A DNA stretch of 64,000 bases, from the NCBI RefSeq assembly GCF_025854375.1, contig NZ_CP107575.1:2480001-2544000 (forward strand). The letters are read 5' to 3'. The notes beneath the pieces were generated by a model. That model was not told the DNA's origin. It ran no database searches and was given only the letters and a program-made list of their open reading frames with translations. The stretch's first letter is position 1, and every line of letters begins with the position of its first letter. Of this stretch, positions 29,854 through 48,920 are shown in pieces. Origin of the DNA: Glutamicibacter sp. JL.03c (GTDB lineage: Bacteria; Actinomycetota; Actinomycetes; Actinomycetales; Micrococcaceae). The position numbers and the translations under genes were made by a program.

Positions 29854-29875
29854 ACTGACCGTTCGTTCAGTATGT
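29854..29875. promoter_or_regulatory. PaaR-like operator at paaA
   Basis: ACTGACCG at 29854-29861 followed by a central TTCGTT and CAGTATGT; it lies within a 26-bp palindrome (29850-29875, nine-base arms ACATACTGA/TCAGTATGT exact). By hand it matches 14 of 16 fixed positions of the corynebacterial PaaR motif as I recall it (ACTNACCG ... CGGTNAGT around a central CG). It overlaps the candidate -10 box. Confidence 0.75.
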
Positions 29876-29923
29876 CAGAGTGCGCTCCATCACGTCAACA
29901 TGAGTTCCCGGGATACGACAAAA

Positions 29924-29945
29924 CCCCAAGGATGATTCCTTGGGG
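29924..29945 (-). terminator. Terminator after doxX
   Basis: Perfect nine-bp stem CCCCAAGGA/TCCTTGGGG with a TGAT loop; on the minus strand it is followed by TTTTG, 21 bases past the doxX stop. Confidence 0.85.
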
Positions 29946-29965
29946 CTGGTCGCAAACGCTTGGTT

Positions 29966-30415
29966 CTAGGCGTTGACCGATTCGCGCCGAGCGCTCTTTC
30001 GGCCAGCAAACAAGCGATCCAGAGCCCAGCTTCCTGGACCCATCAAAGCAAGGGCGGCCGCGCCAGCGCCGAGAGCCAGCACCAGTTCAAACCCGCCATC
30101 AGCAACGAATACGCCGGCTTGCGCGTGGGCCATCACGATGGCTCCGACCATATCCAGCGCCAGCAGCGCGCCGAAGATTCGCGTTGCGAGGCCGAAGATC
30201 AATGCGATGCCACCCACAAGCTCCAAGGTCGCGATGACCGGTGCGACTATGCTGGCAGCCGGGACGCCCATCTGGGTGAAGCTGGCAGCAGTGCCCTCGA
30301 GGGTGAATTGCGAGAATTTCTGCCAGCCGTGGGCAGCGAAGAGAAAACCGATCGCGAAGCGCAAGACGATTTGCGCCGAGGCGAGCAAGCGGGGGTTGTT
30401 TTCCAGTGCGGTCAT
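29966..30415 (-). CDS. DoxX-family membrane protein
   Basis: 149-residue protein with four hydrophobic segments; the early FAIGFLFAAHGWQKF and the middle PVIATLELVGGIALIFGLATR are the DoxX hallmarks. Members have been linked to redox stress and thiosulfate or quinone chemistry, but no reaction can be assigned. It lies just upstream of paaA in the same direction but has its own terminator in between, so it is not part of the PAA operon. A 12-bp perfect palindrome lies about 80 bases upstream. Confidence 0.88.
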   Translation of the reverse strand: MTALENNPRLLASAQIVLRFAIGFLFAAHGWQKFSQFTLEGTAASFTQMGVPAASIVAPVIATLELVGGIALIFGLATRIFGALLALDMVGAIVMAHAQAGVFVADGGFELVLALGAGAAALALMGPGSWALDRLFAGRKSARRESVNA

Positions 30416-30492
30416 TATCCAGCTCCTAGGTAAGGACTTCCGGCCAGGGGGTCTTCCTGCTCGATTTCCTACTCCACACTATGTGCCATAAG

Positions 30493-30504
30493 TTGAAGCT
30501 TCAA
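30493..30504. promoter_or_regulatory. Perfect palindrome upstream of doxX
   Basis: TTGAAGCTTCAA, flanked by ATGTGC (30481-30486) and GCACAT (30505-30510). About 80 bases upstream of the doxX ATG; a plausible dimeric-regulator site. Confidence 0.4.
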
Positions 30505-30547
30505 GCACATTGACGTTTCAAGCCAGTAAGCTTCATCACGCAAAATA

Positions 30548-30592
30548 GCCGTGCCGTCCGTTGCCAGCCAAAGCTGGAACGGACGGCACGGC
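30548..30592 (-). terminator. Terminator of the fused binding-protein/permease ABC operon
   Basis: Arms of 15 bases (30548-30562 with 30578-30592) enclose a second stem CCAGC/GCTGG with loop CAAA, giving a 20-bp hairpin with one bulged G. It lies 25 bases past the ATPase stop. Confidence 0.88.
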
Positions 30593-30616
30593 TTGATCGC
30601 TGCCGCGGGCCGGACC

Positions 30617-31372
30617 CTAGAGGACCTTGGAGAGGAAGTCGCGGGTGCGTTCCTGCTGCGGGTTGCCGAAGAGCTGTTCCGGCTCGCCCTGTTCGCAGAC
30701 CACGCCATCAGCCATGAAGACCACGCGGTCCCCCACTTCGCGGGCAAAGCCCATTTCGTGGGTCACCAGCACCATGGTCATGCCGGACTCAGCCAGCTCC
30801 TTGATGACCTGCAGCACCTCGCCCACCATCTCCGGGTCCAGCGCGCTGGTGGCCTCATCAAAGAGCATGATGCCTGGAGCCATGGCCAGTGCGCGGGCAA
30901 TGGCAACACGCTGCTTCTGGCCGCCGGAAAGCGAAGCCGGACGGGCATCGGCCTTGTCCCTCAGGCCCACGCGTTCCAGCAGTTCCAGTGCCCGCTCGCG
31001 AGCCTGCGCCTTGTTCATCTTCTTCAGCTCAACCGGCGCGAGCATGATGTTCTCGGCCACCGACATGTGCGGGAAGAGATTGAAGTGCTGGAAGACCATG
31101 CCCACGTGGCGGCGGACTTCATTGATATCCACCTTGGGATCGGTCACGTCGAAACCGTCAACGACGACCTTGCCGGAGGTGATGTCCTCAAGCTTGTTCA
31201 GGCAGCGCAGCAAGGTGGACTTGCCGGAACCAGAAGGCCCGATCACGCACACGACCTCGCCTTCACGGATATCAAGGTCAATGCCCTTGAGCACATTGTT
31301 GGAGCCGAAAGACTTATGCAGGTCCTTGACCTGAATCTTCACTTGGGAGCTTTGCTCGGTTACCGCGCTCAC
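30617..31372 (-). CDS. Amino-acid ABC transporter ATP-binding protein
   Basis: 251-residue ATPase, GlnQ-like. Walker [11 protein letters not shown]-loop in [14 protein letters not shown], signature LSGGQKQR, Walker [15 protein letters not shown] and switch LVTHEMGFA. Walker B reads DEATSALD rather than the DEPTSALD seen in the other ABC ATPase of this window; this variant is frequent in the family. The ATG overlaps the stop of the fused binding-protein/permease gene by four bases, so the two are made together. Confidence 0.94.
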
Positions 31373-32835
31373 TTGTTGAACCTCCGATCGGCGTAGTTAG
31401 CCAGCTTGGTCAGGGCCATGATGGCAATGAAGTAGATTACACCTACGATGAGCAGGGTCTCGGTCACGCGGAAGTTCGCTGCGTAGATCTGCTGGCCCTG
31501 GTAGAGCAGTTCGGCGAAGCCGATGGCCAACAGCAGCGAGGAGTCCTTCAAGCTGATGATCAGCTGGTTGATCAACGATGGCGTCATCATCTTGAAAGCC
31601 TGGGGAACCACGACCTTCTGCATGGACTTGCCATAGCCCAAGCCCAGCGAGCGCGATGCTTCGAGCTGCCCTGGATCCACCGACTGGATGCCACCGCGAA
31701 CGATTTCCGCGACATAGGCACCGGCGTTCAGCGACAAGGTCAGTACGCCAGCGGTCCAGACCGAGATTTCCCAACCGGTCAACTGCGGCAGGCCGAAGTA
31801 GAACATGAAGGCCCAAAGCAGCAGCGGAGTGCCGCGGAAAATGTTCACGAAGGTCGTTGCGATGCCGCGCAGGACGATGTTGTGCGAGATCTTCAGGAAG
31901 CCGAAGACCAGACCCAGCACCATGGCGATAGCGAAGGAAATGGCGGTGACCAGCAGGGTGTGCCACAAACCGGTCATCAAGGCCGGGAATGACTTGGCCA
32001 CCAGATCAAAGAAGTTGCTTGGCACCGCGGCGCTGGGGTCAGCAAGGTACTCGTCCAAGATCTTCTGGTATTCGCCATTGGCCTTCAACTCGGCCAGGCC
32101 GTCATTGAAGGCCGCCAGCAGGGCAGTATTTTCGCCCTTGTTCACGGCGAAACCGTAGGAGCCGCCGGGAACTTTGTCGGTGACGGTCTTCAGGCCATTG
32201 CCCTGGGCGATGCCGTATGCCAGCACCGGATAATCATCGAATACCGCCACCGCCGAACCGGACTTCACCGACTCGTACATGGTTGCCGACTGATCCAGCG
32301 ACTTGACCTTGAACCCGTATTCCTTGGAAATGGACTTGGCGTAGGCCTCGCCTTCTGAACCGGTCTTGGCTACTACGGTTTTGCCGTCCAGATCCTCATA
32401 GCCCTTGATGTCCTCGTCTTTTTGGGACACGGCCATCTGGACGCCGGACTCGAAGTAAGGCTCGGAGAAATCATAGATTTCCTTGCGCTCATCGGTGATC
32501 GACATACCCGCAATCACGCCATCGACCTGATTAGCCGACAGGGCCGCCAGCGCGGCGCTAAAACCGAGGGAGCGGACCTCGACCTTGAATCCCTGGTCTT
32601 CGGCAATCGCCTGCAGGATATCCATGTCGATGCCGGTCAGTTCGCCATCCTTGCGGAATTCGAAGGGGGCGAAGGTTGTATCGGTGCCGATGACGAAGGT
32701 TTTCCCTTCGACGCTGTCGCTGCCTTGGGCCATAGCCGACGGCGCTCCGATGACCAGGGCCATCAGGCCGATGGCTGCGGCGGCAACCCACCGCCTCAGG
32801 CGCCCGGCGCGGGCTGCTCTTTGTTTCTTTTCCAC
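31369..32835 (-). CDS. Fused amino-acid binding protein and permease
   Basis: 488-residue two-domain protein. After a basic N-terminus and a cleavable signal-like segment ending APSAMAQ, a family-3 binding domain follows (about 25-260: [33 protein letters not shown]), then a permease domain with EAA loop ([24 protein letters not shown]). Fusing sensor and channel is known in lactobacilli and some actinobacteria and ties one binding domain to each permease half. There is no lipobox cysteine, so the permease helices themselves anchor it. The GTG at 32835 gives a normal signal sequence; an in-frame TTG 13 codons upstream is possible. Confidence 0.88.
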
Positions 32836-33036
32836 TGATGATCGCTTTCTCGTGCTGAAGGGCGAATGGCCCAAGCTGCAGATAAATTCCTATTCCAGCA
32901 AGCCTAAGCGCAATAAAGTCTAGCCGGTACCCTTGGCTCCTCGTTACCGCAGGTTTCCGTCGCTGGACTAGGCCGTTCTGTCCGCGCTGAGCATAGCTTG
33001 CGCCCATAGTGCCCGGAGGTGAGATTGAATAGGGAT

Positions 33037-35190
33037 ATGACTGATCCATCGTTGACCGCCAATCCCCCGCAGGCCGCACAGCGTCCGACCACCCGCAGCT
33101 TCCACGGTGATGATTTCATCGACAACTATGAGTGGCTCCGCGAGAAGTCCAGCCGCGAGGTGCTCGAGCATCTCAAGGCCGAGAATGAATACACTGACGC
33201 AGTCACTGCCGGACAGCAGCCCTTGCGCGACGACCTCTTCAATGAGATCAAAGCCCGCACCGTGGAGACCGACTTGTCGGTTCCCGTGCGCCGACGCGGC
33301 TGGTGGTATTTCACCCGCTCCGCCGAGGGCAAGCCGTACACCGTGCAGTGCCGGGTCAAGGCCACCGATTCCCCGGACCAGGTCGCTGATTGGACTCCCC
33401 CCGTGATCGATCCAGAACACAGCCTGCCGGCCGAAGAGGTATTGCTCGATGGCAACGCGTTGGCCGAGGGCAAGCCATTCTTCTCCCTTGGCGGCATGGC
33501 GCTGAACGAAGAGGGCAACCTGCTGGCCTACTGCGTTGATAATGCCGGCGACGAGCGTTTCACCCTGTACATCAAGGATCTGTCCACTGGGCAGCTGCTG
33601 CCCGATGTCATTGAAGGCATCTTCTACGGCTTGGCGTTCTCCCCCGACTCCTCGACCGTTTTCTACACTGTGGTGGACGAGACGTGGCGCCCGAACCAGG
33701 TTCGCGCGCACCGCCTTGGCACCGACGCGGCCCAGGATCAGCTGGTCTTCGAAGAGAACGATCCAGGGATGTGGCTCGGATTCGATCTGAGCCCGGATCG
33801 CAAGACCCTGATGATTTCCAGCGGCAACTCCGAATACTCTGAGACCAGCATGCTGGATCTGGCCACGGACCAGGCCGAGGTGACCCTGCTGGTTCCCCGC
33901 GAATTGCGACTGCTCCATGGCATCGATCTGATGCCAGGCACAGGCCAAGCCCTGATCACCCACGACTTCCAAGCACCGAATAACATGGTCTCGCTTGCTG
34001 ATGTGGAACAGCTGGGCCAGGGTACCAAGCCAGAACAGTGGCAGACCGTGGTGGCCCACGAAGATACGGTCAAGGTGGAAGGCACGGCCTTGACCGGATC
34101 GCACGTGATCCTTTCAGTGCGCCGCGACACCTGCGAACGAGTCCAGCTGCTTCCGCTTCAGGGCTTGGGCACCGCGGCGCAAGGTCCAGCCATCGAGCCC
34201 GGGTTCGAGGATGAGCTGTTCACCGCTTCCCTGGCCTATGCCGAACTTGATGCGCCGCTGATCCGCATCAGCTACACCGCTGACTTCACGCCGGCCCGCG
34301 TCTACGACCTCTGGCTTGATGGCCAGACGCTGGACCTGCGCAAACAGACCCCGGTCAACAACTACGACGCTTCCAAGTACCTCTCCACCCGCGATTGGGC
34401 CACCGCTGCGGATGGAACCAGGATTCCGCTGACCATCATGCGCCGCGCTGATCTTGATGTCTCCGTGCCGCAGCCGGTGCTGGTCTATGGCTACGGTTCC
34501 TACGAAGCATCGATGGACCCGGGCTTTGGCATCCCGCGCTTGAGCGTGCTGGACCGCGGCGTTATCTTTGTCATTGCCCACGTTCGTGGCGGTGGCGAGC
34601 TGGGTCGCGACTGGTACCTGAACGGCAAGAAGCTCCATAAGAAGAACACCTTTACCGACTTCATCGATTCCACAAGGCACCTCATCGAGGCGGGCATTGC
34701 CGATCCCCAGCGGATCGTCGCCCTGGGCGGATCGGCCGGCGGCCTGCTCATGGGCGCCATCGCGAATATGGCTCCGCAGCTGTACACCGCAATCATCGCC
34801 CAGGTTCCCTTCGTGGATGCGCTGACATCCATCCTGGATCCGGATCTTCCGCTTTCTGCTTTGGAATGGGAAGAGTGGGGGAATCCTATTGAGAGCAAAG
34901 AAGTCTATGACTACATGAAGTCGTACTCTCCTTATGAAAACGTCACGGCTCAGGCCTACCCGAAGATCGCGGCGGTCACTTCGCTGAACGACACCCGCGT
35001 ACTGTACGTCGAGCCGGCCAAGTGGGTCGCCAAGCTGCGTGAAGTGGGCACCGGTGAAGAGCCAATCGTGCTCAAGACGGAGATGGACGGTGGCCACGGC
35101 GGGGCCTCGGGCCGTTATGAATCCTGGAAATCACGGGCTTGGGACTATGCTTTCGCCCTGGATGCCCTGGGCTGCATCAAGCTCATCTAA
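33037..35190 (+). CDS. Oligopeptidase B-like S9 peptidase
   Basis: 717-residue prolyl-oligopeptidase-family serine peptidase of the PtrB type, cutting short peptides after basic residues. An N-terminal propeller (about 1-410) precedes the alpha/beta-hydrolase domain. Catalytic serine is in GGSAGG (about 566), aspartate in LNDTRV (about 651) and histidine in DGGHGGASGRYE (about 687). No signal peptide, so cytoplasmic. The start is uncertain: the ATG at 33037 is used, while a TTG at 33025 has a better-spaced GGAGG. The downstream GNAT-GrpB gene begins 20 bases after its stop. Confidence 0.9.
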   Translation: MTDPSLTANPPQAAQRPTTRSFHGDDFIDNYEWLREKSSREVLEHLKAENEYTDAVTAGQQPLRDDLFNEIKARTVETDLSVPVRRRGWWYFTRSAEGKPYTVQCRVKATDSPDQVADWTPPVIDPEHSLPAEEVLLDGNALAEGKPFFSLGGMALNEEGNLLAYCVDNAGDERFTLYIKDLSTGQLLPDVIEGIFYGLAFSPDSSTVFYTVVDETWRPNQVRAHRLGTDAAQDQLVFEENDPGMWLGFDLSPDRKTLMISSGNSEYSETSMLDLATDQAEVTLLVPRELRLLHGIDLMPGTGQALITHDFQAPNNMVSLADVEQLGQGTKPEQWQTVVAHEDTVKVEGTALTGSHVILSVRRDTCERVQLLPLQGLGTAAQGPAIEPGFEDELFTASLAYAELDAPLIRISYTADFTPARVYDLWLDGQTLDLRKQTPVNNYDASKYLSTRDWATAADGTRIPLTIMRRADLDVSVPQPVLVYGYGSYEASMDPGFGIPRLSVLDRGVIFVIAHVRGGGELGRDWYLNGKKLHKKNTFTDFIDSTRHLIEAGIADPQRIVALGGSAGGLLMGAIANMAPQLYTAIIAQVPFVDALTSILDPDLPLSALEWEEWGNPIESKEVYDYMKSYSPYENVTAQAYPKIAAVTSLNDTRVLYVEPAKWVAKLREVGTGEEPIVLKTEMDGGHGGASGRYESWKSRAWDYAFALDALGCIKLI

Positions 35191-35210
35191 CTCGCGTCAG
35201 GAAGGCGGCC

Positions 35211-36224
35211 ATGCGCCACATCAAGATCAAGAACCATCGTGACGATTCGTCGGTTCGCCGGTTATTGGTGCTGGCCGCCGATCCCGCAGGCGAACAAGGC
35301 CTGGAAGATCTGCTCGATGAGTGCCAGGAGCTGAAGGTTCTGGCGCATAGCGCCGAGGACGGGACCATCGATGCGTTGGCGGCCTATCGGCACAGCGATC
35401 AGTACTCGCTGTGCTTGGAATATCTTGCGGTGCTGCCCGAATTCCAGCAACGTGGATTAGGCCGGGCCCTGATTGAGGAACTGCGCTTGATTCACCGCAA
35501 GAATGTCTGGGCCACGACACATGATGATGCCGTCGATTTCTACCGGGCAATGGGCTGCGTCATTTCCAATTCCGCCGAGGATCCCCGGTGGCCTGGTGTC
35601 GCGCGGTACTTGTGCACCGCGCCATATCTTCCTTTGCTGCACAGCCAGCCGGCGGAAGACCCGGAGTACGAGGCGGTCAATGGCCAGCTGACCCGGGGCA
35701 ATATTCGCATTGACGAGCCCTCGCCGAGCTGGCCGAGGGACTTCGAGGAGCTAGCACAGCGGATCGCTGGCGCCTTGGGGCCGCAGGCCCTGGCCATTGA
35801 ACATACTGGCTCCACGTCGGTTCCGGGGCTTCCGGCGAAACCGATTATTGACATCTGCTTGCTGGTCCCCGACGCCAATGACGAGCCCAGCTACGCTCCG
35901 GTGTTGGAGGGCATTGGCTTGGTGTTCTGGCATCGCGAGCCTGGCTGGTACGCACACCGCATGTTCAAGCCGGCTGCCGATAGCAGTCGCGTCGATGCCA
36001 ACGTCCATGTGTTTTCCGCCGGCAGCCCGGAGTACGTGCGCATGGTTCTTTTCCGTGAGCATCTCAAGGGCAATGCTGCTGACCGCCAGGCTTACGCGAG
36101 GGTCAAGCGAAAGGCCGCGGCCCAGCTGCTGGCCGAGCAGGGCGAGAATGGGTTAGTCATGGATTACAACCGGATCAAGGAGCCGTTCATCGTGGCCTTG
36201 CATCACAAGCTGTTCGCCTCGTAG
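35211..36224 (+). CDS. GNAT acetyltransferase fused to a GrpB (UPF0157) domain
   Basis: 337-residue two-domain protein. Residues 1 to about 150 are a GNAT acetyltransferase with the acetyl-CoA loop LPEFQQRGLGRALIEEL; the C-terminal part (about 165-337) is a GrpB/UPF0157 domain of the nucleotidyltransferase superfamily, with EHTGSTSVPGLPAKPIIDI carrying the G-S and first aspartate, then HVFSAGSPE and FREHLKGN. GrpB domains are better known alone or fused to dephospho-CoA kinase. The ATG at 35211 has AGGAAGG upstream. Both substrates are unknown. Confidence 0.87.
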   Translation: MRHIKIKNHRDDSSVRRLLVLAADPAGEQGLEDLLDECQELKVLAHSAEDGTIDALAAYRHSDQYSLCLEYLAVLPEFQQRGLGRALIEELRLIHRKNVWATTHDDAVDFYRAMGCVISNSAEDPRWPGVARYLCTAPYLPLLHSQPAEDPEYEAVNGQLTRGNIRIDEPSPSWPRDFEELAQRIAGALGPQALAIEHTGSTSVPGLPAKPIIDICLLVPDANDEPSYAPVLEGIGLVFWHREPGWYAHRMFKPAADSSRVDANVHVFSAGSPEYVRMVLFREHLKGNAADRQAYARVKRKAAAQLLAEQGENGLVMDYNRIKEPFIVALHHKLFAS

Positions 36225-36297: not shown

Positions 36298-36319
36298 ACC
36301 TAATGATCGTTCGGTAAAT
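36298..36319. promoter_or_regulatory. PaaR-like operator at paaI
   Basis: Left half ACCTAATG is weak, right half CGTTCGGTAAAT is good; 12 of 16 fixed positions match by hand. It ends 19 bases before the paaI ATG used here. Confidence 0.6.
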
Positions 36320-36338
36320 AAATCGGCGAAGGACAATG

Positions 36339-36779
36339 ATGACAAATACCCAGGTAGAAGAACCCATGCCCCACGCCATTCTCCGCAATGACTATGCGAC
36401 TCAATGGATGGGCATCAACGTCGTCGAAGTTCGCGAAGGGCATGCGGTCATCACCATGGAACTGCGCCCCGAAATGCTCAACGGTTTTGGAATCGGCCAC
36501 GGCGGAATGATCTTCGCTTTGGCAGACACCGCCTTTGCCTTGAGCTGCAACCCCGTAGAAGGCTCCGATGAGAACATCACCGTCGCCGCCGGAGCGGATA
36601 TCAATTTCCTTCGGCCTGCCATTCCCGGAAGAACGCTTACCGCCACCGGCCAACGGGTCTCGCAACAAGGACGTAGCGGGGTCTATGACATCACGGTGAC
36701 CCAGGAATCCAGCGACGGGGGCAGCGAAGTCGTAGCCGAATTCCGCGGACGTTCCCGCACTGTGCCCAAGCCACGCTAA
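36339..36779 (+). CDS. paaI: Phenylacetate-pathway hot-dog thioesterase
   Basis: 146-residue hot-dog-fold thioesterase. The family core LNGFGIGHGGMIFALADTAFALSCN contains the catalytic aspartate and the glycine-rich turn. PaaI hydrolyses stalled ring-hydroxylated or other dead-end CoA thioesters and so protects the CoA pool. The second of two adjacent ATGs (36339) is chosen because GAAGGA is then five bases away. It opens the paaI-paaK-paaR unit behind a PaaR-like operator. Confidence 0.92.
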   Translation: MTNTQVEEPMPHAILRNDYATQWMGINVVEVREGHAVITMELRPEMLNGFGIGHGGMIFALADTAFALSCNPVEGSDENITVAAGADINFLRPAIPGRTLTATGQRVSQQGRSGVYDITVTQESSDGGSEVVAEFRGRSRTVPKPR

Positions 36780-36816
36780 GGCCGCCCTTCAGTCCACTCG
36801 ACACGAAAGTTTCAAC

Positions 36817-38136
36817 ATGTCTCAGACTTCCAACCGCGACGCTCTTCCCAATCCCCTGGATCCGGAAGAGACCATGAGCCGCGATCAAATTGAAGCCATC
36901 CAGCTTGAACGGCTGAAGGAAACCCTTCACCATGCCTACACCAACGTCCCGCACTACAAAGAGAAATACGATGCGGCAGGAGTCCACCCCGAGGATCTCA
37001 AGGAACTGGGCGACCTCGCGCTGTTCCCCTTCACGGACAAAGAGGATTTGCGCAAGACCTATCCCTTTGGCATGTTCGCCGTGCCGCAGCACGAGGTCTC
37101 CCGAATCCATGCGTCCTCGGGCACGACCGGAAAGCCAACGGTTGTCGGCTACACCCAGCAGGACCTGGCTGATTGGGCCAAGCTCGGCGCACGATGCCTG
37201 CGGCTATCCGGCGTGAAGCCGGGCTGGAAGGTGCACAACGCCTACGGCTATGGCTTGTTCACCGGCGGGCTGGGAGCACACGCCGCTGCGGAGCAGCTTG
37301 GCGCAACGGTCATCCCCATGTCCGGAGGGCAAACCGATAAGCAGATTTCGCTGATCCAGGACTTCGCCCCCGACGCGATTCTGTGCACCCCGACCTACCT
37401 GCTGACCATCGGCGATGCCATGCAGCGCAAGGGCCTCGATCCGCGCAGCACCTCGCTGAAGGTCGCGGTTCTCGGCGCCGAGCCATGGACCGAAGAAATG
37501 CGCCATGAACTCGAAGAGATGTTCAATATCGATGCTTGCGATATCTACGGACTCTCCGAGGTCATGGGCCCAGGCGTTGCTGGCGAATCCAATGAACGCA
37601 AGGACGGCAGCCACATCTGGGAAGACCATTTCCGCCCCGAAATCATCGATGCCTTCGATTCGAGCAAGGTCCTGGGTGATGGAGAACATGGCGAGCTGGT
37701 TTTCACCTCGCTGACCAAGCAAGCCCTGCCGATCATCCGCTACCGGACCCATGACCTCACGCGCCTGCTACCTGGCAGCGTCCGCCCCGGGCACCGTCGA
37801 ATGGGCCGTATCACCGGGCGCAGTGATGACATGATCATTCTGCGTGGAGTAAATCTCTTCCCCAGCCAGATCGAAGAGCTGATCCTCAAGGTGCCAGGCC
37901 TCTCCCCTCACTTCCAGCTCATCCTTACGCGCCCCGACCGCATGGATCAACTAGCAGTGAAAGTCGAACGCCGCATGGATGCGACGGCCGAGCAGGCTGA
38001 GCATGCAGGGAAGGAACTGGCCAAGCTCATCAAGATCCACATCGGCTCGTCCTGCGCCATCGATGTCGTTGAGCCGGAGTCGCTGGAGCGATCAATGGGC
38101 AAGCTCAAGCGAATCTATGATCAGCGTAATCAGTAA
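36817..38136 (+). CDS. paaK: Phenylacetate--CoA ligase
   Basis: 439-residue adenylate-forming ligase that activates phenylacetate with ATP and CoA, the pathway entry step. The P-loop is SSGTTGKPT (about 100-108), the AMP-binding YGLSEVMGPGVAGE follows, then RTHDLTRL and the hinge GRSDDMIILRGVNLFPSQIEE. Length is normal for PaaK. It lies 37 bases after paaI and 32 before paaR. Confidence 0.96.
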   Translation: MSQTSNRDALPNPLDPEETMSRDQIEAIQLERLKETLHHAYTNVPHYKEKYDAAGVHPEDLKELGDLALFPFTDKEDLRKTYPFGMFAVPQHEVSRIHASSGTTGKPTVVGYTQQDLADWAKLGARCLRLSGVKPGWKVHNAYGYGLFTGGLGAHAAAEQLGATVIPMSGGQTDKQISLIQDFAPDAILCTPTYLLTIGDAMQRKGLDPRSTSLKVAVLGAEPWTEEMRHELEEMFNIDACDIYGLSEVMGPGVAGESNERKDGSHIWEDHFRPEIIDAFDSSKVLGDGEHGELVFTSLTKQALPIIRYRTHDLTRLLPGSVRPGHRRMGRITGRSDDMIILRGVNLFPSQIEELILKVPGLSPHFQLILTRPDRMDQLAVKVERRMDATAEQAEHAGKELAKLIKIHIGSSCAIDVVEPESLERSMGKLKRIYDQRNQ

Positions 38137-38168
38137 TATGCGCAGGGACATGGAATAATCGACTCATC

Positions 38169-38786
38169 ATGGACACAACCGACACTGCCAGCCACCCGGT
38201 GAAACGCGGGCGCCCCGGATACGACCAGGAAACCGTACTGAGAATTGCCGTCGAGGCATTCAACGAATACGGCTACGACGCGACCTCCATGGGCAGGCTT
38301 GCCGACCGCTTGGGGATCAGCAAGTCCGCGATTTACCATCACGTTCCTTCCAAAGAAGACTTGTTGCGCCTCGCCTTGGACGAAGCGCTCTTCCCCTTGG
38401 AAGCGGTCATCACCGAGGTGCGCACACACGAGGGCAGTGCCGACGAGCGTTTGGAATTCTTCTTGCGCTCAACCATCCGCATCCTGATCGAAAAGCGTCC
38501 CTATGTGACCTTGCTGCTGCGTCTGCGTGGCAACACCGAGTTGGAGCGCCAAGCACTGGATCGCCGCCGTGCCATGGACCGCCAGCTCGCTGAGTTGGTC
38601 ACGGCCGCGCAAAGCGACGGGAAGCTTCGAGATGACTTGGAGCCACGCGCCACGGCCCGACTCTTGTTCGGCATGATCAACTCGGTAGTGGATTGGTACC
38701 GGGTAGATGGCCCGCTGGAGGCTTCGGCTCTGGAAGAACAAGCGGTGTCATTGCTCTTCCACGGCCTGCACACCGTAGTGGAGTAG
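38169..38786 (+). CDS. paaR: TetR-family regulator of phenylacetate genes
   Basis: 205-residue TetR regulator with an N-terminal helix-turn-helix (about 24-65; MGRLADRLGISKSAIYHHVPSKEDLL) and a helical effector domain. It ends the paaI-paaK unit, so it would be autoregulated through the operator before paaI. In corynebacteria PaaR represses PAA genes and is released by phenylacetyl-CoA; the presence of matching operators at four promoters here supports the same role. The effector is inferred from the family. Confidence 0.88.
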   Translation: MDTTDTASHPVKRGRPGYDQETVLRIAVEAFNEYGYDATSMGRLADRLGISKSAIYHHVPSKEDLLRLALDEALFPLEAVITEVRTHEGSADERLEFFLRSTIRILIEKRPYVTLLLRLRGNTELERQALDRRRAMDRQLAELVTAAQSDGKLRDDLEPRATARLLFGMINSVVDWYRVDGPLEASALEEQAVSLLFHGLHTVVE

Positions 38787-39764: not shown

Positions 39765-39774
39765 ATTCTTATGG

Positions 39775-41873: not shown

Positions 41874-44003
41874 TTAGCTACCGAAGTTGGCGTAGGTGAG
41901 GTCTTCTTTCTCCACCAGGGTCAAGACATCGTAGGTCGCGACAATCTCATCATTCTGATTGTGCAAGATCGCGTCCCACGCGACCTCGCCATATTCATCG
42001 GTGACTCGCGACGTGATTTTCTTGGCCGTAAGGGTCACGCGAATCGAATCGCCGGCTGCGACCGGGGTGATGAAGCGCAAGGATTCCAGTCCGTAGTTGG
42101 CTAGCACAGGCCCCGGAGCTGGCTCTACGAAGAGGCCGGCAGCCCACGACACGAGCAGGTACCCGTGGGCGACAATCCCAGGGAAGAACGGGTTCGCTTC
42201 GGCAGCTTTTGCATCGGTGTGCGCGTAGAAGGTGTCGCCGGTTTTCTCGGCGAATTCGCTGATTTCTTCAAGATTCACTACACGCAGATCAGAGGCGAAG
42301 CCATCGCCCACTTGCAGCTCGGCCAGCGATTTGCGGAACGGGTGGGTGTATTGCGCTTGGCCACCGAACTTTTCGCATCCGGCCAGGCGCTGTTCAGCGC
42401 CGCTATGCCACACGCCGCTGAGCGCAGTGAGCATATTCGGCGAGCCCTGAACGGCAGTGCGCTGCATATGGTGCTTCACCGATCGGATTCCTCCCAGCTC
42501 CTCGCCACCACCGGCGCGTCCCGGACCTCCATGGACCAGGTGAGGAACTGGTGAACCGTGGCCGGTCGTTGATCGCGCGGTTTCCCGGTTCAGGATGTGT
42601 ACGCGACCATGGTGGGCCGCGATCCCCAGGGCCAGTGAACGCACGGCGTCGGCGTCGTTGCTGCACACGGTGGCCACCAGCGAGCCTGCACCCATGGCGG
42701 CCAGCTGCACGGCTTCGTCCAGGTTCTCATAACCAATGACGGAGCTGACCGGGCCAAAAGCCTCGCGGGAGTGCACCAGTGGATTGCGGGCATCGGCCCA
42801 ACGTAGAACCACAGGAGACATGAAGGCACCGGATTCGGCCACGGCGTCGCGTTCTGGCGCCACGCGTACGGCCGGGGCATCCAGGCGGCCATAGGCTAGC
42901 TCACCTCCGGCATCAATCATGTCCTGCACTGCGGCACGGACATCAGCCAGCTGCTCCATGGAAGCCAGGGCGCCCATGGTCACGCCCTCGACGCGGGGGT
43001 CGCCAATGACGACCCGCTGGTCGATTCGCCGGCCGATGGCGGCAATGACCGGATCAACCAGGCGGGAAGGCACGATGTTGCGGCGGATCGCGGTGCACTT
43101 CTGGCCAGCCTTGGAGGTCATCTCAGTGACGACAACCTTGATGAAGGCCTCGAACTCCGCTGTTCCTTCTTCCGCGTCAGGACCGAGGATGGCCGCGTTG
43201 AGGGAGTCGGTTTCTGCCGCGAAGCGCACTCCCCCGTCGATGACATTTGGATGGGACTTCAACTTGCTGGCCGTGGCGGCCGAGCCGGTGAAGGCGAACA
43301 TGTCACGGTAGTCGAGGTGGTCCATCAGGTCGCGGGCTGATCCCGAGAGAAGCTGCAGGGAACCCTCGGGAAGGATGCCTGATTCCAGCATTAGCCTCAC
43401 AGCCGCTTCGGTGAGGTAGCCCGTTGGAGTCGCTGGCTTGACGATGGTGGGAACACCGGCAATAAACGCCGGGGCAAACTTCTCGAGCATGCCCCATACC
43501 GGGAAGTTGAACGCGTTGACCTGCACCACGACACCACTCATTGCGGTGTAGACATGCGTGCCGATAAAAGAGCCGTCCTTGCTCAGCGGTTCTGTTGGCC
43601 CGTCCAGGATGACATTGCTATTGGGAAGCTCGCGGCGGCCCTTGGAAGAGAACGTGAACAGAACGCCGATTCCTCCATCGATATCCACCATGGAATCGGT
43701 CTTGGTGGCGCCAGTCTTGAAGGATATCTCGTAAAGGTCTTTGCGTCGCTCGTTTAGATACAGCGCAAGTTCCTTGAGCTTGAGCGCGCGCTCATGCAAG
43801 GAAAGCTTGGCCAGCTCCTGATGCCCGGTGCCACGGCCGTAGTCCACGGCCGCTGCAACATCCAGCTTGTCGTTAGTGACGGTGGTTAGAAGTTCTCCGG
43901 TGTTGGCGTCGCGGACTTCTGTTCCGCCCTCGGATTGCGGGGTCCGCCATTCTCCGGCGATAAAGCTGGGTACCACGCTGATCTTTTTTGTCGACATTGA
44001 CAC
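41874..44003 (-). CDS. paaZ: Bifunctional oxepin-CoA hydrolase / 3-oxo-5,6-dehydrosuberyl-CoA semialdehyde dehydrogenase
   Basis: 709-residue fusion that opens the oxepin ring and oxidises the resulting aldehyde. The aldehyde dehydrogenase part (about 1-520) has [30 protein letters not shown] and the catalytic cysteine in GQKCTAIRR (about 301). The C-terminal MaoC hydratase (about 545-700) contains [28 protein letters not shown]. Both parts are intact with no frameshift. The GTG at 44003 is five bases from AGGAGG; an ATG two codons later (43997) is an equal candidate. It is a single-gene unit with its own PaaR-like operator over the ribosome site. Confidence 0.95.
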
Positions 44004-44007
44004 AATT

Positions 44008-44029
44008 CCCTCCTGAACGGTCGGTCAGT
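44008..44029. promoter_or_regulatory. PaaR-like operator at paaZ
   Basis: On the minus strand a perfect left half ACTGACCG, central CG and TTC, then a poor right half; 12 of 16 fixed positions. It overlaps the AGGAGGG ribosome-binding site. Confidence 0.6.
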
Positions 44030-44112: not shown

Positions 44113-44835
44113 TCAGGAATTCCGCGCCAGAGCACTCAATCGCTCCAGGCTCTTCTCGCTCACGCCCTGGGCCAGCAAATAGGAGCGGGCCGAACCAAGC
44201 CATGCACAGAATTCCGATAGGGCTGCGGCTCTGCCTCGAATGATTTCCCGCAGTTCCCCTTCACTCTGATAGCTCTCATAGGGATGCTTCCTGGGCGAGA
44301 CGCGATGCCATTCGTTGATGCCGCGCACCGCCAGCTCATCATGGGCGAGAATCTGATCCCGGGAGCCTGCGAGATCCAGCAGCATGGTGGCGATCAAGCC
44401 AGAGCGGTCGCGGCCTGCCGAACAGTGGATCACGGTTGAGCCTTGGGAATCCGCCAAATTCTCGAAGACTGCGCGCAGCTGGTCGCCGAATTCTTCGCAC
44501 ACCAATCGGTACATGCCGGTGTGATTCATATATGGCACGGCGATGGATTCGAATCTCGTATTGCCGGGCGTCTCCAGTGGAAGGTTCACCAGTTCAATGC
44601 CGGAGAACGTTGCTTGGGGCACCGCGGGGTCATGCTCGCGTCGGTGGATCTCATCGGGGTTGCGCAGGTCCACGACCTTGCCGATGCCGTCCTCGTGCAT
44701 TTGCTGCCAACCTTGGACGCTAAGCCACTCGTGGCGGCCCATTCGATAAAAGGCTCCGCAAATGTGCCGCGCATTCACGGATCCTTCCCATTCCAGATCT
44801 CCGCTTTGCTTTTGATAGTTCAGGCCCTGGCTCAT
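44113..44835 (-). CDS. Protein-tyrosine/serine phosphatase
   Basis: 240-residue phosphatase of the bacterial PTP (Y-phosphatase3-like) family. The P-loop VIHCSAGRDRSG (C-x5-R) is at about 135-146, preceded by an early VVDLRNPDEI segment. No signal peptide. It is divergent from the RIO1-like kinase gene across 140 bases containing a perfect 20-bp palindrome, so phosphatase and kinase may be co-controlled, but that they act on the same protein is only a guess. Spacing to paaZ leaves no visible terminator. Confidence 0.87.
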   Translation of the reverse strand: MSQGLNYQKQSGDLEWEGSVNARHICGAFYRMGRHEWLSVQGWQQMHEDGIGKVVDLRNPDEIHRREHDPAVPQATFSGIELVNLPLETPGNTRFESIAVPYMNHTGMYRLVCEEFGDQLRAVFENLADSQGSTVIHCSAGRDRSGLIATMLLDLAGSRDQILAHDELAVRGINEWHRVSPRKHPYESYQSEGELREIIRGRAAALSEFCAWLGSARSYLLAQGVSEKSLERLSALARNS

Positions 44836-44877
44836 TTACCCATTGCAACATACTGATTGACTGTTGTAGAGTTCTAG

Positions 44878-44897
44878 TCATTGGCAATTGCCAATGA
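44878..44897. promoter_or_regulatory. Perfect 20-bp palindrome between phosphatase and kinase genes
   Basis: Arm TCATTGGCAA is exactly mirrored around AATT. It lies just downstream of a possible + strand promoter (TTGCAA 44843-44848, 18 bases, TAGAGT 44867-44872), near the expected start of transcription. Candidate operator of an unknown dimeric regulator. Confidence 0.65.
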
Positions 44898-44919
44898 GTC
44901 TATTGAAGGAGGGGTAACG

Positions 44920-45018
44920 ATGATTGCTTACCGCCATTCCCGGTCATTGATCTCTTTCTCTAAGGACTTATCCCAATGCATTTTCCTGCTGGAAAACCAA
45001 CCACCAGCTCGCAGGTAA
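44920..45018 (+). CDS. Possible 32-codon leader ORF overlapping the RIO1-like gene
   Basis: ATG at 44920 is preceded by GAAGGAGGGG at ideal distance, one of the strongest ribosome sites in the window. The frame (MIAYRHSRSLISF ...) runs 32 codons and ends inside the kinase gene in another frame. It could be a translational-coupling leader peptide. No family is recognised; the evidence is the ribosome site only. Confidence 0.4.
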   Translation: MIAYRHSRSLISFSKDLSQCIFLLENQPPARR

Positions 45019-45878
45019 TCTCGTCCAACTTCACTGACGCTGATACCAAACTCAAATTCCGCAGGCACAAGCCCGTGTGGAACGAATCATCCTCAGATGA
45101 GCCATCGGCTGGCCAGCGCTACTCCACCTGGCCGTTTATCGAAAAGGGCATGCGCGGGCCGCAGCCATACCCGCTGTGGCTGATTGAGGACGCCGCTGCC
45201 ATGGACACCGAATTGGGCATCCTCAAAACCGGCAAAGAAGGCGACGTCTTCCTGCTGGAACGAGCAACGGAGGAGCGCTCAAGCCTGTTGGCCGCCAAAC
45301 GCTATCGCTCCCGCGACCACCTGCAATTCAGCCGTTCGCAAGCTTATAGCGATGGCAGGTCTGCCCGGCGGTCGCGCGATAAGCGAGCCATCAGCAACAA
45401 TTCCGCCTACGGCCGGGACATCGCCGCTTTGCAGTGGGCCAACGCGGAATGGACCTATCTCTTGCGCTGTTACGAAGCCGGCATTCCCGTGCCATATCCG
45501 GTGCAGATTGACGGCACCGAGATCCTCATGGAATTTATTGCCGACCCGGACAATCCGCTGGCGGCAGCACCCCGTTTGCAACAGCTTGCGCGCTTTGATC
45601 CGCGGCTTCCCGCTTTATGGGATCAACTCACTGACGCCCTGGAGAAGTTCGCCGGAATGGGGATTGCCCATGGCGACTTGTCCGCATACAACCTCCTGGT
45701 TTCCGGCGAGCGCCTGGTGGTCATCGATGTTCCGCAGTGCGTGGATCTGGCGGGAAATCCGCAAGGCATGGACTTCTTGCACCGCGACTGCGTCAATCTG
45801 TGCGAGTGGTTTGATTCCAAGGGCCTGCCGCAAGACCCAGATGAGCTCTTTGCTTCACTGCTAGGACATCTCTTCTAG
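44976..45878 (+). CDS. RIO1-like atypical protein kinase
   Basis: 300-residue kinase-fold protein. ATP-loop equivalent LKTGKEGDVFLLE (about 85-97), a lysine in AAKRYR, catalytic loop HGDLSAYNLL (about 231-240) and the metal-binding VIDVPQ (about 248-253) all fit the RIO family, whose archaeal and eukaryotic members act in ribosome maturation. Bacterial members are poorly understood. Upstream stop codons in this frame at 44961 fix the start near 44976, which has a weak AAGGA nine bases away; translation may depend on the overlapping leader frame. Confidence 0.85.
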   Translation: MHFPAGKPTTSSQVISSNFTDADTKLKFRRHKPVWNESSSDEPSAGQRYSTWPFIEKGMRGPQPYPLWLIEDAAAMDTELGILKTGKEGDVFLLERATEERSSLLAAKRYRSRDHLQFSRSQAYSDGRSARRSRDKRAISNNSAYGRDIAALQWANAEWTYLLRCYEAGIPVPYPVQIDGTEILMEFIADPDNPLAAAPRLQQLARFDPRLPALWDQLTDALEKFAGMGIAHGDLSAYNLLVSGERLVVIDVPQCVDLAGNPQGMDFLHRDCVNLCEWFDSKGLPQDPDELFASLLGHLF

Positions 45879-45894
45879 GCTCCTGAAGCACGAC

Positions 45895-45928
45895 GGCCTC
45901 CGCCGGTCATTGCTGACTGGCGGAGGCC
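45895..45928. terminator. Shared terminator of kinase gene and paaH
   Basis: Stem GGCCTCCGCC (45895-45904) with 45919-45928, between convergent genes. Confidence 0.85.
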
Positions 45929-45958
45929 CTCGTCGCTGAAGCTTGCATGGCGGGTTTC

Positions 45959-46831
45959 CTACCAGCTGTAGAAGCCCCGGCCGCTCTTGCGGCCCAGCTT
46001 TCCCTCAGCCACCATGTCCTTGAGGATCTGCGGCGGAGCAAATCGCTCCCCCAGGGTCTCATGGAGGTACTCGGCGATTCCCAGACGCACATCCAAGCCG
46101 ACAATGTCGGTGGTTTTCAGCGGGCCGGTCGGGTGCTTGTAACCCAGGACCATGGCATTGTCGATGTCTTCGGCGCTGGCCACGCCTTCTTCCACCATGC
46201 GCATGGCTTCCAGGGCGATGGCAACGCCCAGGCGCGAGGAAGCGAAGCCCGGAGCGTCATTGACCACCACGGCGGTCTTGCCCAGCGCCTGCACCCAGCC
46301 GCGCGATGCATCAACCAGGTTCTTCTCAGTCTGCTCGCCGATGACCACTTCGATGAGCGTCGAGGCTGGCACCGGGTTGAAGAAATGAAGCCCGAGGAAC
46401 TTGCCAGGCCGGGCCAATTCCTTGGCCAGCCCGTTGACCGATAGGGAGGAAGTATTCGAGGCCAGCACTGCCTCCGGAGCCAGCACCTGCTCTACGGCCT
46501 GCAGCGAGGAGACCTTCAGGTCCCAGATCTCCGGAACGGCCTCGATCACCAGTTGAGCGGTGGCGAATTGCTGGTAGTCCGTGCTCACCGAGAAACGCTG
46601 CATGAGCTCGTCTTTGGATTCGCGCACGACCCCGCGGGCGATGGACTTGTCGACGGACTCGGTGACCCGCTCATAGGCAGCCTGCGCGGAGGCCTCGTCG
46701 CGCTCGACGACAACCACCGTGCTGCCGCTGATCAGCAGGGCGTGGGCGATGCCTGCGCCCATGCGGCCGCCTCCGAGCACGCCGCTGTCCTGGGGTAGCT
46801 GGCCCGTCAAAAAGTTATTGGTTGCGCTCAT
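45959..46831 (-). CDS. paaH: 3-Hydroxyadipyl-CoA dehydrogenase
   Basis: 290-residue NAD-dependent 3-hydroxyacyl-CoA dehydrogenase oxidising 3-hydroxyadipyl-CoA to 3-oxoadipyl-CoA. The NAD loop is GVLGGGRMGAGIA (G-x-G-x2-G, about 18-28), followed by SNTSSLSVNGLA, the catalytic histidine in GLHFFNPVPAS and the VNDAPGFASSRLG segment. It is the last gene of the paaJ-paaF-paaH unit, two bases after paaF. The substrate is inferred from context; butyryl-CoA-type dehydrogenases share the sequence. Confidence 0.92.
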   Translation of the reverse strand: MSATNNFLTGQLPQDSGVLGGGRMGAGIAHALLISGSTVVVVERDEASAQAAYERVTESVDKSIARGVVRESKDELMQRFSVSTDYQQFATAQLVIEAVPEIWDLKVSSLQAVEQVLAPEAVLASNTSSLSVNGLAKELARPGKFLGLHFFNPVPASTLIEVVIGEQTEKNLVDASRGWVQALGKTAVVVNDAPGFASSRLGVAIALEAMRMVEEGVASAEDIDNAMVLGYKHPTGPLKTTDIVGLDVRLGIAEYLHETLGERFAPPQILKDMVAEGKLGRKSGRGFYSW

Positions 46832-46833
46832 GG

Positions 46834-47628
46834 TTACTTCTTCTTTCGATCGAGGAATGCCTGCATGCGATCAAACTTGGCTTGGGATTCGAAAAGCATT
46901 CCCTGGGCCAAGGTGTCGATGACCGGATGGGCTTCACGTGGAGCGTGGAATACCGACTTGGTGATCCGCACAGCCAAAGGATCCTGGGCCGCAATGCGAT
47001 CAGCCAGTGCCTCAGCCGCCGCGTCCAGTTCGCTGGCCGGGTGCAGTTCAGTGATCAGCCCTGCTTCCAGGCACTGCTGGCCGGTGAGCACCTTGCCAGC
47101 CAGGAGGATCTCCTTGGCCAGGGGTTCGCCCACCAGCTCCTTGAGCCGCCAGGTCGCCCCGGCCGCGGCCATGATGCCAAGGTTGGTTTCGGGGTTGCCC
47201 ATGCGCAGCTCTTCGGTGCCGATGCGGAAATCCGCGGCGTAGGCCAGCTCGGCTCCCCCGCCCAGGGCAAATCCGTCAAGTGCGGCGATCACGGGCATCG
47301 GCAATTTGGCGACACGATCGAAGATCCCGGAGTTGATCCCAGCGAGCGCGTCATCACGGCGGCGTTCTCGCAATTGCGAGATGTCGGCACCGGATGCAAA
47401 GATCCCCTTGCTTCCCTTGGGATTCGCATCGCTGGGCGCCTGGCTGGCTGTGCCTGCCAGGATCAGGATTTTGGGATTCCTTTCCAGGTCATCGCAGACG
47501 ACATGCAGCTCATCGACCATCGTCTGGTCGATCGCATTGCGCACCTCGGGCCGGTGGAGCCGGACCCACAGCCGGTCATCGGTTTCGTTCAGCTTGAGAG
47601 TCTGGAATCCGTTATCGAGGCTTCCCAC
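46834..47628 (-). CDS. paaF: 2,3-Dehydroadipyl-CoA hydratase
   Basis: 264-residue crotonase hydratase. Oxyanion-hole segments are FASGADISQL and LDGFALGGGAELA; the catalytic glutamate region is NPETNLGIMAAAGATWRL. It adds water to 2,3-dehydroadipyl-CoA. The GTG at 47628 has GGAAGGAG seven to eight bases upstream, within the end of paaJ; the frame is open 20 codons earlier inside paaJ but is not used. It sits one base after the thiolase stop. Confidence 0.9.
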   Translation of the reverse strand: MGSLDNGFQTLKLNETDDRLWVRLHRPEVRNAIDQTMVDELHVVCDDLERNPKILILAGTASQAPSDANPKGSKGIFASGADISQLRERRRDDALAGINSGIFDRVAKLPMPVIAALDGFALGGGAELAYAADFRIGTEELRMGNPETNLGIMAAAGATWRLKELVGEPLAKEILLAGKVLTGQQCLEAGLITELHPASELDAAAEALADRIAAQDPLAVRITKSVFHAPREAHPVIDTLAQGMLFESQAKFDRMQAFLDRKKK

Positions 47629-47629
47629 T

Positions 47630-48853
47630 TTAGGCTCCTTCCAGCAAGATGGCCGATCCTTGCCCCACGCCGACGCACATGGTGGCAACCGCCAGCTTGC
47701 GCTGCGCTGTCGCGAGCTCTCGTTCCATGCGGCCCAGCAAGGTGATCACGATGCGCGATCCGCTGGATCCCAGCGGATGGCCCAATGCAATGGCGCCCCC
47801 GTCGCGGTTCACGATCTGCGGGTCCACGCCGAGCTCGCGCATGCTGGCCAGGGATTGGCTGGCAAAGGCCTCGTTGATTTCCATGGCGCCGAGCTCCCCG
47901 ATCGACAGCCCTGCGCGGTCGAGCACCTTGCGGGTTGCCGGCACCGGTCCCATGCCCATGATCTCCGGTTCCAGGCCGGCGGCCTGCCCGTCGATGATGC
48001 GGGCACGCGCAGTCAGCGAATACTTTTCCAGGGCGCGTTCTGAAACCACCAGGATGGCCGAGGCGCCATCGTTCAGCGAGGAGGCATTCCCAGCGGTCAC
48101 CACCTCGCCGCCGCTCACGACCGGGCGCAGGCCGGAGAGCACTTCCATGCTCGTTCCCGGGCGCGGGCCCTCATCGGTATCCACGATGGTTTCCCCCTTG
48201 CGGTGCTTGACCGCCACCGGCACGATTTCGTCGCGGAAGTGGCCGGCCTTTATGGCGGCCATGGCCTTGGCGTGGGAATCAACAGCGAACTGATCGCAGT
48301 CCTCGCGGGAGATTCCGTAGACGCGGGCCACTTCTTCTGCGGTCTCCGGCATGGAGTAGGTCGCCTTGCCATCTCGTGACAGCTGCCCGGAAAGGAATTG
48401 CGGGTTGGTGAAGCGCCAGCCGATGGACGTGTCGAAGACTGCACCGGGCTTGGCGAAAGGCTTATCGGGTTTCTCCATGACCCATGGGGCGCGGGACATT
48501 GATTCCACGCCGCCGGCGATCACCACGTCGGCGGCTCCGGCCTTGATCATGTGGCTGGCCATGGTGATGGCGCTCATTCCCGACGCGCAAAGGCGGTTGA
48601 CGGTGATGCCAGGAACACTTACCGGCAATCCCGCCAGCAGCGATGCCATGCGCGCAACATTGCGGTTCTCTTCACCGGCGCCGTTGGCGTTGCCGAGAAT
48701 CACTTCATCAACCGCTGCCGGGTCGATTCCGGAGTCCTGGATGAGATCGCGGATCGCCAGTGCGGCAAGATCATCGGGGCGCACTGAGCTCAAGGCTCCC
48801 CCATAGCGCCCTACCGGGGTGCGGCTCCCGCCGACGAGAAATGCTTCAGTCAT
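47630..48853 (-). CDS. paaJ: 3-Oxoadipyl-CoA thiolase
   Basis: 407-residue thiolase that splits 3-oxoadipyl-CoA to succinyl-CoA and acetyl-CoA and may also act upstream on 3-oxo-5,6-dehydrosuberyl-CoA. The acyl-enzyme cysteine is in NRLCASGMSAI (about 90), with later INEAFASQ, GGAIALGHPLGSSG and the second cysteine in CVGVGQGSA. The ATG at 48853 follows AAGGAGTACAC. It leads the paaJ-paaF-paaH unit behind a PaaR-like operator and is divergent from menB. Confidence 0.93.
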   Translation of the reverse strand: MTEAFLVGGSRTPVGRYGGALSSVRPDDLAALAIRDLIQDSGIDPAAVDEVILGNANGAGEENRNVARMASLLAGLPVSVPGITVNRLCASGMSAITMASHMIKAGAADVVIAGGVESMSRAPWVMEKPDKPFAKPGAVFDTSIGWRFTNPQFLSGQLSRDGKATYSMPETAEEVARVYGISREDCDQFAVDSHAKAMAAIKAGHFRDEIVPVAVKHRKGETIVDTDEGPRPGTSMEVLSGLRPVVSGGEVVTAGNASSLNDGASAILVVSERALEKYSLTARARIIDGQAAGLEPEIMGMGPVPATRKVLDRAGLSIGELGAMEINEAFASQSLASMRELGVDPQIVNRDGGAIALGHPLGSSGSRIVITLLGRMERELATAQRKLAVATMCVGVGQGSAILLEGA

Positions 48854-48898
48854 GTGTACTCCTTGGGCCAAAATTGCTTGGTGATCCTCAACACCTAA

Positions 48899-48920
48899 AC
48901 TTACCGACCATTCGTTCAAT
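48899..48920. promoter_or_regulatory. PaaR-like operator at paaJ
   Basis: Left half ACTTACCG (48899-48906) exact, right half degenerate; 13 of 16 fixed positions match. It overlaps a candidate minus-strand paaJ promoter (TTGAAC 48919-48914, 16 bases, TAGGTG 48897-48892). Confidence 0.7.

Follow-up and report, generated by a model that had tools for sequence, protein, structure and literature searches.

Predicted PaaR operators of 18 bp in front of four dispersed phenylacetate units and a remote transporter gene in Glutamicibacter sp. JL.03c

The phenylacetate (paa) genes of Glutamicibacter sp. JL.03c are split among several transcription units. In the window, that is, the whole stretch of 64,000 nucleotides that was analysed (NCBI RefSeq assembly GCF_025854375.1, contig NZ_CP107575.1, positions 2,480,001 to 2,544,000 of the forward strand), four such units are present: paaABCDE, paaI-paaK-paaR, paaZ and paaJ-paaF-paaH. 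Interleaved with them are genes for a DoxX/HvfX-like protein, an amino-acid ABC transporter, oligopeptidase B, a GNAT-GrpB protein, a PnuC-like protein, an amylase-like enzyme, a tyrosine phosphatase and a RIO-type kinase. The element common to the four paa sites is an 18-bp palindrome, ACYGAMCG-NN-CGKTCRGT, with a 2-bp spacer and AT-rich flanks. These sites are very probably the operators of PaaR, the TetR-family regulator encoded in the second unit, and the four units would then form one PaaR-repressed, split regulon with a further member far outside the window.

Read from promoters of the genus and the family, the full shared element is attACYGAMCG-NN-CGKTCRGTaat. Its consensus, ACYGAMCGNNCGKTCRGT, was derived post hoc from the sites of the window, the genus and the family. 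With up to 2 mismatches, it is found at just four places in the window, which are the four paa sites (Table 1); 0.26 such places are expected, and none of 100 shuffled sequences reached four. In the window sites, a 2-bp spacer separates inverted MCG half-sites, as in PaaR sites of the Thermus/Burkholderia type, and, going by the sequence alone, such palindromes at the paa promoters are what would be predicted for PaaR. The distance from the operator to the annotated start codon ranges from 8 to 49 bp. At paaZ, the gene-proximal end of the operator merges into a ribosome-binding-like sequence, AGGAGG, which may account for its one deviating base. The paaJ operator sits in the region (48853-48990) shared by paaJ and the divergent menB, which encodes 1,4-dihydroxy-2-naphthoyl-coenzyme A (CoA) synthase; since menB shares this region, PaaR could influence its expression as well.

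Table 1. Predicted operators, genes and related features (positions in the window unless marked G000; scores in bits from the position weight matrix described in the text; simulated P values are one-sided and assume independent columns; ORF, open reading frame)
Feature	Position	Strand	Remarks
Predicted PaaR operator of paaABCDE	29854..29871	.	0 mismatches to ACYGAMCGNNCGKTCRGT; 32.4 bits
Predicted PaaR operator of paaI-paaK-paaR	36298..36315	.	2 mismatches to ACYGAMCGNNCGKTCRGT, strong AT flanks; 35.0 bits, best of the window
Predicted PaaR operator of paaZ	44012..44029	.	1 mismatch to ACYGAMCGNNCGKTCRGT; 21.4 bits
Predicted PaaR operator of paaJ-paaF-paaH	48903..48920	.	2 mismatches to ACYGAMCGNNCGKTCRGT; 27.3 bits
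Weaker copy, 4 bp towards paaA	29850..29867	.	16.9 bits, simulated P 0.008
Weaker copy, 4 bp towards paaI	36302..36319	.	15.6 bits, simulated P 0.012
Weaker copy, 4 bp towards paaZ	44008..44025	.	14.9 bits, simulated P 0.015
Weaker copy, 4 bp towards paaJ	48899..48916	.	16.7 bits, simulated P 0.008
Candidate paaA promoter, TTGACG-18-CATACT	29869..29898	-	Scan: 1 found, 0.1 expected; -10 box overlaps operator
Unit paaABCDE	26003..29824	-	
paaA	28838..29824	-	TIGR02156 1.1e-146
paaB	28546..28836	-	TIGR02157 3.7e-38
paaC, ORF as listed	27689..28678	-	TIGR02158 7.3e-88, match from residue 95
paaD	27160..27657	-	TIGR02159 4.2e-58
paaE, ORF as listed	26003..27226	-	TIGR02160 4.1e-143, match from residue 35
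Unit paaI-paaK-paaR	36336..38786	+	
paaI, thioesterase	36336..36779	+	TIGR02286 2e-35
paaK, phenylacetate-CoA ligase	36817..38136	+	TIGR02155 4.5e-190; 631.6 bits, cut-off 646.3
paaR, TetR-family regulator (P0001), 205 aa	38169..38786	+	PF00440 1.6e-14, PF17932 8.9e-23
paaZ	41874..44003	-	TIGR02278 5.1e-302
Unit paaJ-paaF-paaH	45959..48853	-	
paaJ, thiolase	47630..48853	-	TIGR02430 3.8e-155, below cut-off; listed ORF to 48931, matches from residue 27-29
paaF-like, enoyl-CoA hydratase	46834..47688	-	Best NCBIfam model PaaF (PRK09674, 9e-42), below cut-off
paaH-like, 3-hydroxyacyl-CoA dehydrogenase	45959..46831	-	NCBIfam dehydrogenase models, best 2.4e-79, below cut-offs; PaaH model 1.4e-56
MHS-type (metabolite/H+ symporter) MFS transporter, 446 aa, with site (L076)	G000:C1:1339986-1341368		TIGR00883 5.8e-117, below cut-off

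The conservation of the sites was followed in 18 genomes of the genus, including that of the window (the region was taken from the 17 others), and in 33 loci from 27 other genera of the family, which were hand-picked for genus spread from 184 PaaR-bearing family genomes. A promoter was counted when at least 13 of 16 consensus positions were matched within 300 bp upstream; in those other genera whose paaA and paaI diverge at a short distance, a single site served for both counts. Within the genus, the site stands before paaA, paaI and paaZ in all 18 genomes and before paaJ in all 13 that could be read, as the paaJ promoter lies outside the stretch covered in the remaining five. In the other genera, it was found at 14/14 paaA, 31/32 paaI (18/32 at a stricter 14/16), 27/28 paaZ and 11/13 paaJ promoters. 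The first-pass annotation had seen no site at the interleaved genes, and this observation extends to the genus: none of 126 upstream regions of these eight genes has one, nor do 71 regions of paaK, paaR, paaF and paaH or five of paaB. The single menB region of the genus has the site (1/1) because it is common to menB and paaJ. In the genus, column invariance is 0.89-1.0 in the operator core, as against 0.03-0.36 just upstream.

A symmetric position weight matrix of 26 columns was built from 82 sites, all of them outside the genus. It is independent of the genus, though not of the motif idea, since its sites were selected with the consensus. Over the 64-kb window, it ranks the paaI, paaA, paaJ and paaZ operators first to fourth; below them come their own 4-bp-shifted images (14.9-16.9 bits) and then the next unrelated place, at 2.9 bits.

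The first-pass annotation had placed the same sites in a different register. Chen et al. are said to have described, in 2012, a TetR-type PaaR of the paa genes of Corynebacterium glutamicum together with a 22-bp box, ACTNACCGNNCGNNCGGTNAGT, symmetric about a central CG. Four 22-mers do lie where that annotation had put them, and they match 14, 12, 12 and 13 of the 16 fixed positions of ACTNACCGNNCGNNCGGTNAGT, exactly as it had counted. That the sites are corynebacterial boxes centred on this CG is, nevertheless, improbable. Among 84 sites of other genera, a mean of 7.8 of 12 pairs is complementary at the centre of the 18-mer, compared with 5.9 two bases gene-ward, at the centre of the 22-mer, and 4.5 two bases the opposite way. 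The family centre is thus 2 bp away from the CG of ACTNACCGNNCGNNCGGTNAGT. In the window, too, the paaA, paaI and paaZ sites are most symmetric at the 18-mer centre (10, 9 and 7 of 12), while paaJ is tied at 6 and 6, a point in favour of the 22-mer. Under the loose criterion, further matches of the 22-mer turn up within the same 64 kb, with a score of 12 at 38574, inside paaR, and of 13 at 29850, and no exact copy was found in this genome. With up to 3 mismatches, it yields 3 matches in the window, two of them overlapping at paaA (0.25 expected; 1 of 100 shuffles reaches 3), and the paaI and paaZ 22-mers have 4 mismatches each. The sites are real, yet, given these off-target scores and the shuffle result, the 22-mer is not what demonstrates them. 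It was rejected as the defining motif; by its sequence symmetry, the window carries the 18-bp form of the operator, centred on the 18-mer.

The 22-bp form itself appears to exist elsewhere. The exact 22-mer was found in four of 394 genomes of the class, and in one of them alone (G573, locus L133) did the paa queries match adjoining paa genes. There it immediately precedes paaA, with paaR nearby, and 10 of 12 pairs are complementary about its own centre. This copy lends the corynebacterial reading some weight, and because of it both operator forms appear to be present in the class. In G484, the only match among the paa queries was a short paaR-like (TetR-type) stretch. At locus L132 (1501-1522), the exact 22-mer, ACTTACCGACCGATCGGTAAGT, adjoins a short TetR-type match, the only one that the paa queries gave there, and a regulator other than PaaR may act at that box. 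A putative Streptomyces site, AACGA-N4-TCGGT, which is matched within the paaJ site, also favours the 22-mer (available text of PMC10933834).

The specificity of the 18-bp operator was assessed over the whole genome of 3.59 Mb by pattern searches with up to 3 mismatches. At this threshold, the extended form, TTACYGAMCGNNCGKTCRGTAA, occurs at six places (reversed control 3), the paa sites being four of them; five of the six are conserved. Equal-scoring sites elsewhere, named in the first-pass annotation as the outcome that would speak against a regulon, are thus not common for the extended motif. The sixth place (G000:C1:1761792) lies before a DeoR/SorC-type regulator and was rejected as a regulon member, as it decays in relatives: of the 18 genus genomes, four (that of the window among them) give a matrix score of 13.1 there and two give 12.9, while the remaining 12 do not exceed 2.0. 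Another conserved-looking leader, AGT.T.GT...GGTCAAA, was seen upstream of the DeoR/SorC-type gene in the genus (L222-L239), and the gene has one stop within the match in 5 of 18 genus genomes.

The sites also go together with the regulator. A PaaR match is present in all 18 genus genomes and, at E<=1e-30, in 184 of 197 family genomes, the genus included. In 13 PaaR-bearing family genomes, 41 places with at most 1 mismatch were counted (reversed control 10), compared with 5 (control 5) in 13 PaaR-less ones; three of these five come from one genome (G082, 82% complete) and resemble the sites of its PaaR-bearing congeners. Conservation, genome-wide specificity and co-occurrence together uphold the proposal, already made in the first-pass annotation, of one regulon with paaR inside it.

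Several findings weigh against this assignment. The paaI and paaJ sites each deviate at two consensus positions; in other genera, one paaI, one paaZ and two paaJ promoters fall below 13/16, and some control regions outside the genus do score (opB 3/15, RIO 1/2, paaR 4/33, paaK 1/32). Scans for sigma-70-like promoters found none at paaI, paaZ and paaJ. Co-occurrence cannot tell the regulator from its targets, because PaaR-less genomes may be without paa genes. The bare 18-mer, with up to 2 mismatches, occurs at 18 places in the genome and its reversed control at 23. The core alone is therefore not specific; much of the specificity resides in the flanks, with conservation also needed. When 15 of these 18 places were scored with the matrix (all except 3008769, 3189379 and 3442344), the four paa sites and that of the remote transporter reached 21.0-35.0 bits and the other ten at most 13.2. 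These ten were rejected: eight lie inside longer ORFs, one is the sixth place mentioned above, and one is intergenic (L088, 2.2 bits). Lastly, palindromes of this size are bound by many TetR proteins, and the sites could in principle belong to another regulator of the TetR type under whose control the paa genes happen to stand. Such a regulator is very improbable, as paaR is the conserved TetR gene of the cluster, in one operon with the best-scoring site, and the next-best match to PaaR within this genome is distant (3.8e-8).

In PaaR, Pfam recognises a TetR N-terminal helix-turn-helix and a TetR-type ligand domain; against NCBIfam, no model reached its cut-off. Among solved relatives by sequence, the best match is SCO3833 (2iai, 2.5e-49); MbdR (4uds, 5.6e-13), an aryl-CoA regulator, is another. 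The order paaI, paaK, paaR was recovered in 32 of 33 other-genus loci, the exception being L050, in which paaI and paaK were not recovered. Since the intergenic gaps within paaI-paaK-paaR are just 37 and 32 bp, paaR would be autoregulated, provided that the paaI site is used. Among actinomycetes, the prevalent regulator of paa genes is reported to be PaaR, with Arthrobacter as one of the genera named (PMC13186573, as far as its available text goes). A protein 58% identical to PaaR was also met in a record titled Sporosarcina beigongshangi (L193, NZ_JADHDY010000002.1), which suggests contamination, mislabelling or transfer.

The fifth conserved place of the extended motif is remote. It lies at G000:C1:1339986-1340003, 1.17 Mb from paaA and 24 bp upstream of a gene for an MHS-type transporter, the neighbour of which is a divergent IclR-type regulator. 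All 18 genus genomes have a close homologue of the transporter, and every one of these is preceded by a site that matches 14-15 of 16 positions. Counting 25 loci from other genera, 39 of 43 transporter loci have the site, and all 39 score at least 17.9 bits by the paa-derived matrix; no site was found before the transporter in the other four (L120, L127, L128 and L130). No more than 15 kb separates a transporter homologue from paaR in at least seven genomes, which represent five genera (G022, G038, G043, G050, G052, G083 and G097), and in G043, the one of the seven in which this was checked, a 1-mismatch site is present about 140 bp before it. There is thus good evidence, at the level of sequence, that the MHS-type transporter belongs to the predicted PaaR regulon, and phenylacetate may be the substrate that it imports. 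A precedent is known from C. glutamicum R, where a putative phenylacetate transporter lies in the paa cluster (PMC8796525, available text).

The sites, together with their conservation, specificity and co-occurrence with PaaR, were obtained by computation, and from them a mode of action can be proposed. A PaaR dimer would bind ACYGAMCG-NN-CGKTCRGT and block initiation. The first-pass annotation had operators overlapping promoter boxes at paaA and paaJ; the overlap was recovered at paaA, where the operator covers part of the -10 box and the -35 region, GTTGACGTGA, is invariant in the 18 genus genomes, whereas at paaJ the scan gave no promoter to overlap. Incoming phenylacetate would be converted to phenylacetyl-CoA via PaaK, and this product, if the Thermus and Burkholderia proteins are a guide to the ligand, would release PaaR. 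Consequently, paaABCDE, paaIKR, paaZ and paaJFH would be induced together despite the unrelated genes in between, and PaaR would control the operon of which its own gene is the third. Counting the transporter with the same operator, the regulon would comprise five units in total. An entirely different role, in which the palindromes work as RNA hairpins or terminators in 5' leaders, is barely conceivable. The paaA site was flagged as terminator-like, but it was the only one of the four regions scanned to be so; moreover, the element there would not be fully transcribed, as it overlaps the predicted -10 box, and the letters of the half-sites are conserved beyond what mere pairing would need.

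Apart from the strong 18-bp site, each of the four window operators has a weaker copy 4 bp towards its gene, and no comparable copy is found 4 bp on their opposite side (0.6 to -18.8 bits). It is because of this copy that the 22-mer looked plausible in the first place. As a tentative refinement, compatible with PaaR as the regulator, it is possible that the paa operators are composites, in which a strong and a weaker site take two PaaR dimers and of which the 22-mer is the symmetric form. QacR and CprB are known to bind in this way, as dimers of dimers (available text of PMC4150764). In support, all four window copies are gene-side and score well in simulation (Table 1), and the gene side is favoured in 29 of 29 distinct genus sites and in 57 of 83 sites of other genera. 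On the other hand, the genus sites come from four promoters and are not independent. In other genera, the effect is weak, with a median +4 score of 2.0; 9 of 83 sites reach 14.9, compared with 2 of 83 on the opposite side, and paaZ shows no preference (13/27). The transporter operator has no weaker copy (3.8 bits), and the asymmetry could also arise from promoter constraints. A fuller picture, with five dispersed PaaR units including a dedicated importer, two-dimer composite paa operators 4 bp apart with the weaker site gene-side, and the 22-bp box as their fully symmetric form, is speculative and rather doubtful. If true, PaaR operators for one dimer and those for two dimers would mark the opposite ends of a single evolutionary series.

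A few details of the neighbourhood may be added. The start of paaC is probably near 28396, as the family match begins at residue 95 of the listed ORF. Downstream of paaE, on the same strand (20697-25983), matches to E1-alpha, E1-beta and E2 components of the pyruvate-dehydrogenase type and to an enoyl-CoA hydratase are found. Among the interleaved genes, a single ORF at 31369-32874 matches both GlnH (substrate-binding) and GlnP (permease), and hence represents a fused amino-acid ABC transporter protein, and at 35139-36224 a GrpB domain is fused to a GNAT acetyltransferase domain.

Taken as a whole, this is an ordinary, well-conserved predicted PaaR regulon, which the first-pass annotation had right in outline; its operators have been put in their proper register, and a further predicted member, at a remote place, has joined it. 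Left uncorrected, the error of register would misplace the centre of gel-shift probes and matrices. The hand-read motif has also become a matrix usable for PaaR across an actinobacterial family, and a candidate phenylacetate importer is named, which its genome position here would not have suggested. Among the literature matches listed, no title or abstract announces a PaaR operator of Glutamicibacter or Arthrobacter or a PaaR-controlled transporter. It is quite likely that the motif has been published, since RegPrecise 3.0 refers to a comparative analysis of PaaR in the literature (PMC3840689, available text).

The system resembles several known ones and departs from each. In Glutamicibacter, the transporter gene lies at a distance from paa, and the symmetry centre is an NN 2 bp away from the CG on which the corynebacterial 22-mer is said to be centred; with the C. 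glutamicum regulator, PaaR nevertheless shares its place among actinobacterial TetR-type paa regulators and compatible half-site bases. In Streptomyces pristinaespiralis, PaaR is likewise a TetR-type regulator on paa genes, but the spacing of its putative site, with 6 bp between AACG and CGGT, is of the 22-mer type and not the symmetric 2-bp spacer (PMC10933834, available text). The overlapping half-sites, as read from the sequence, recall those of QacR and CprB, which are able to take two dimers (PMC4150764, available text). A parallel in geometry is offered by Thermus thermophilus and Burkholderia cenocepacia. According to the available text of PMC9493321, their PaaR, a TetR-family paa regulator, recognises inverted repeats with a 2-bp spacer (CNAACGNNCGTTNG; ACCGACCGGTCGGTT), and is released by phenylacetyl-CoA; in Burkholderia, several separate units stand under one PaaR repressor. 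The CG-NN-CG geometry of the site is the same here, whereas the outer positions ACYG/CRGT, the AT-rich flanks, the five predicted units and the weaker overlapping copy at each paa site set the Glutamicibacter system apart.

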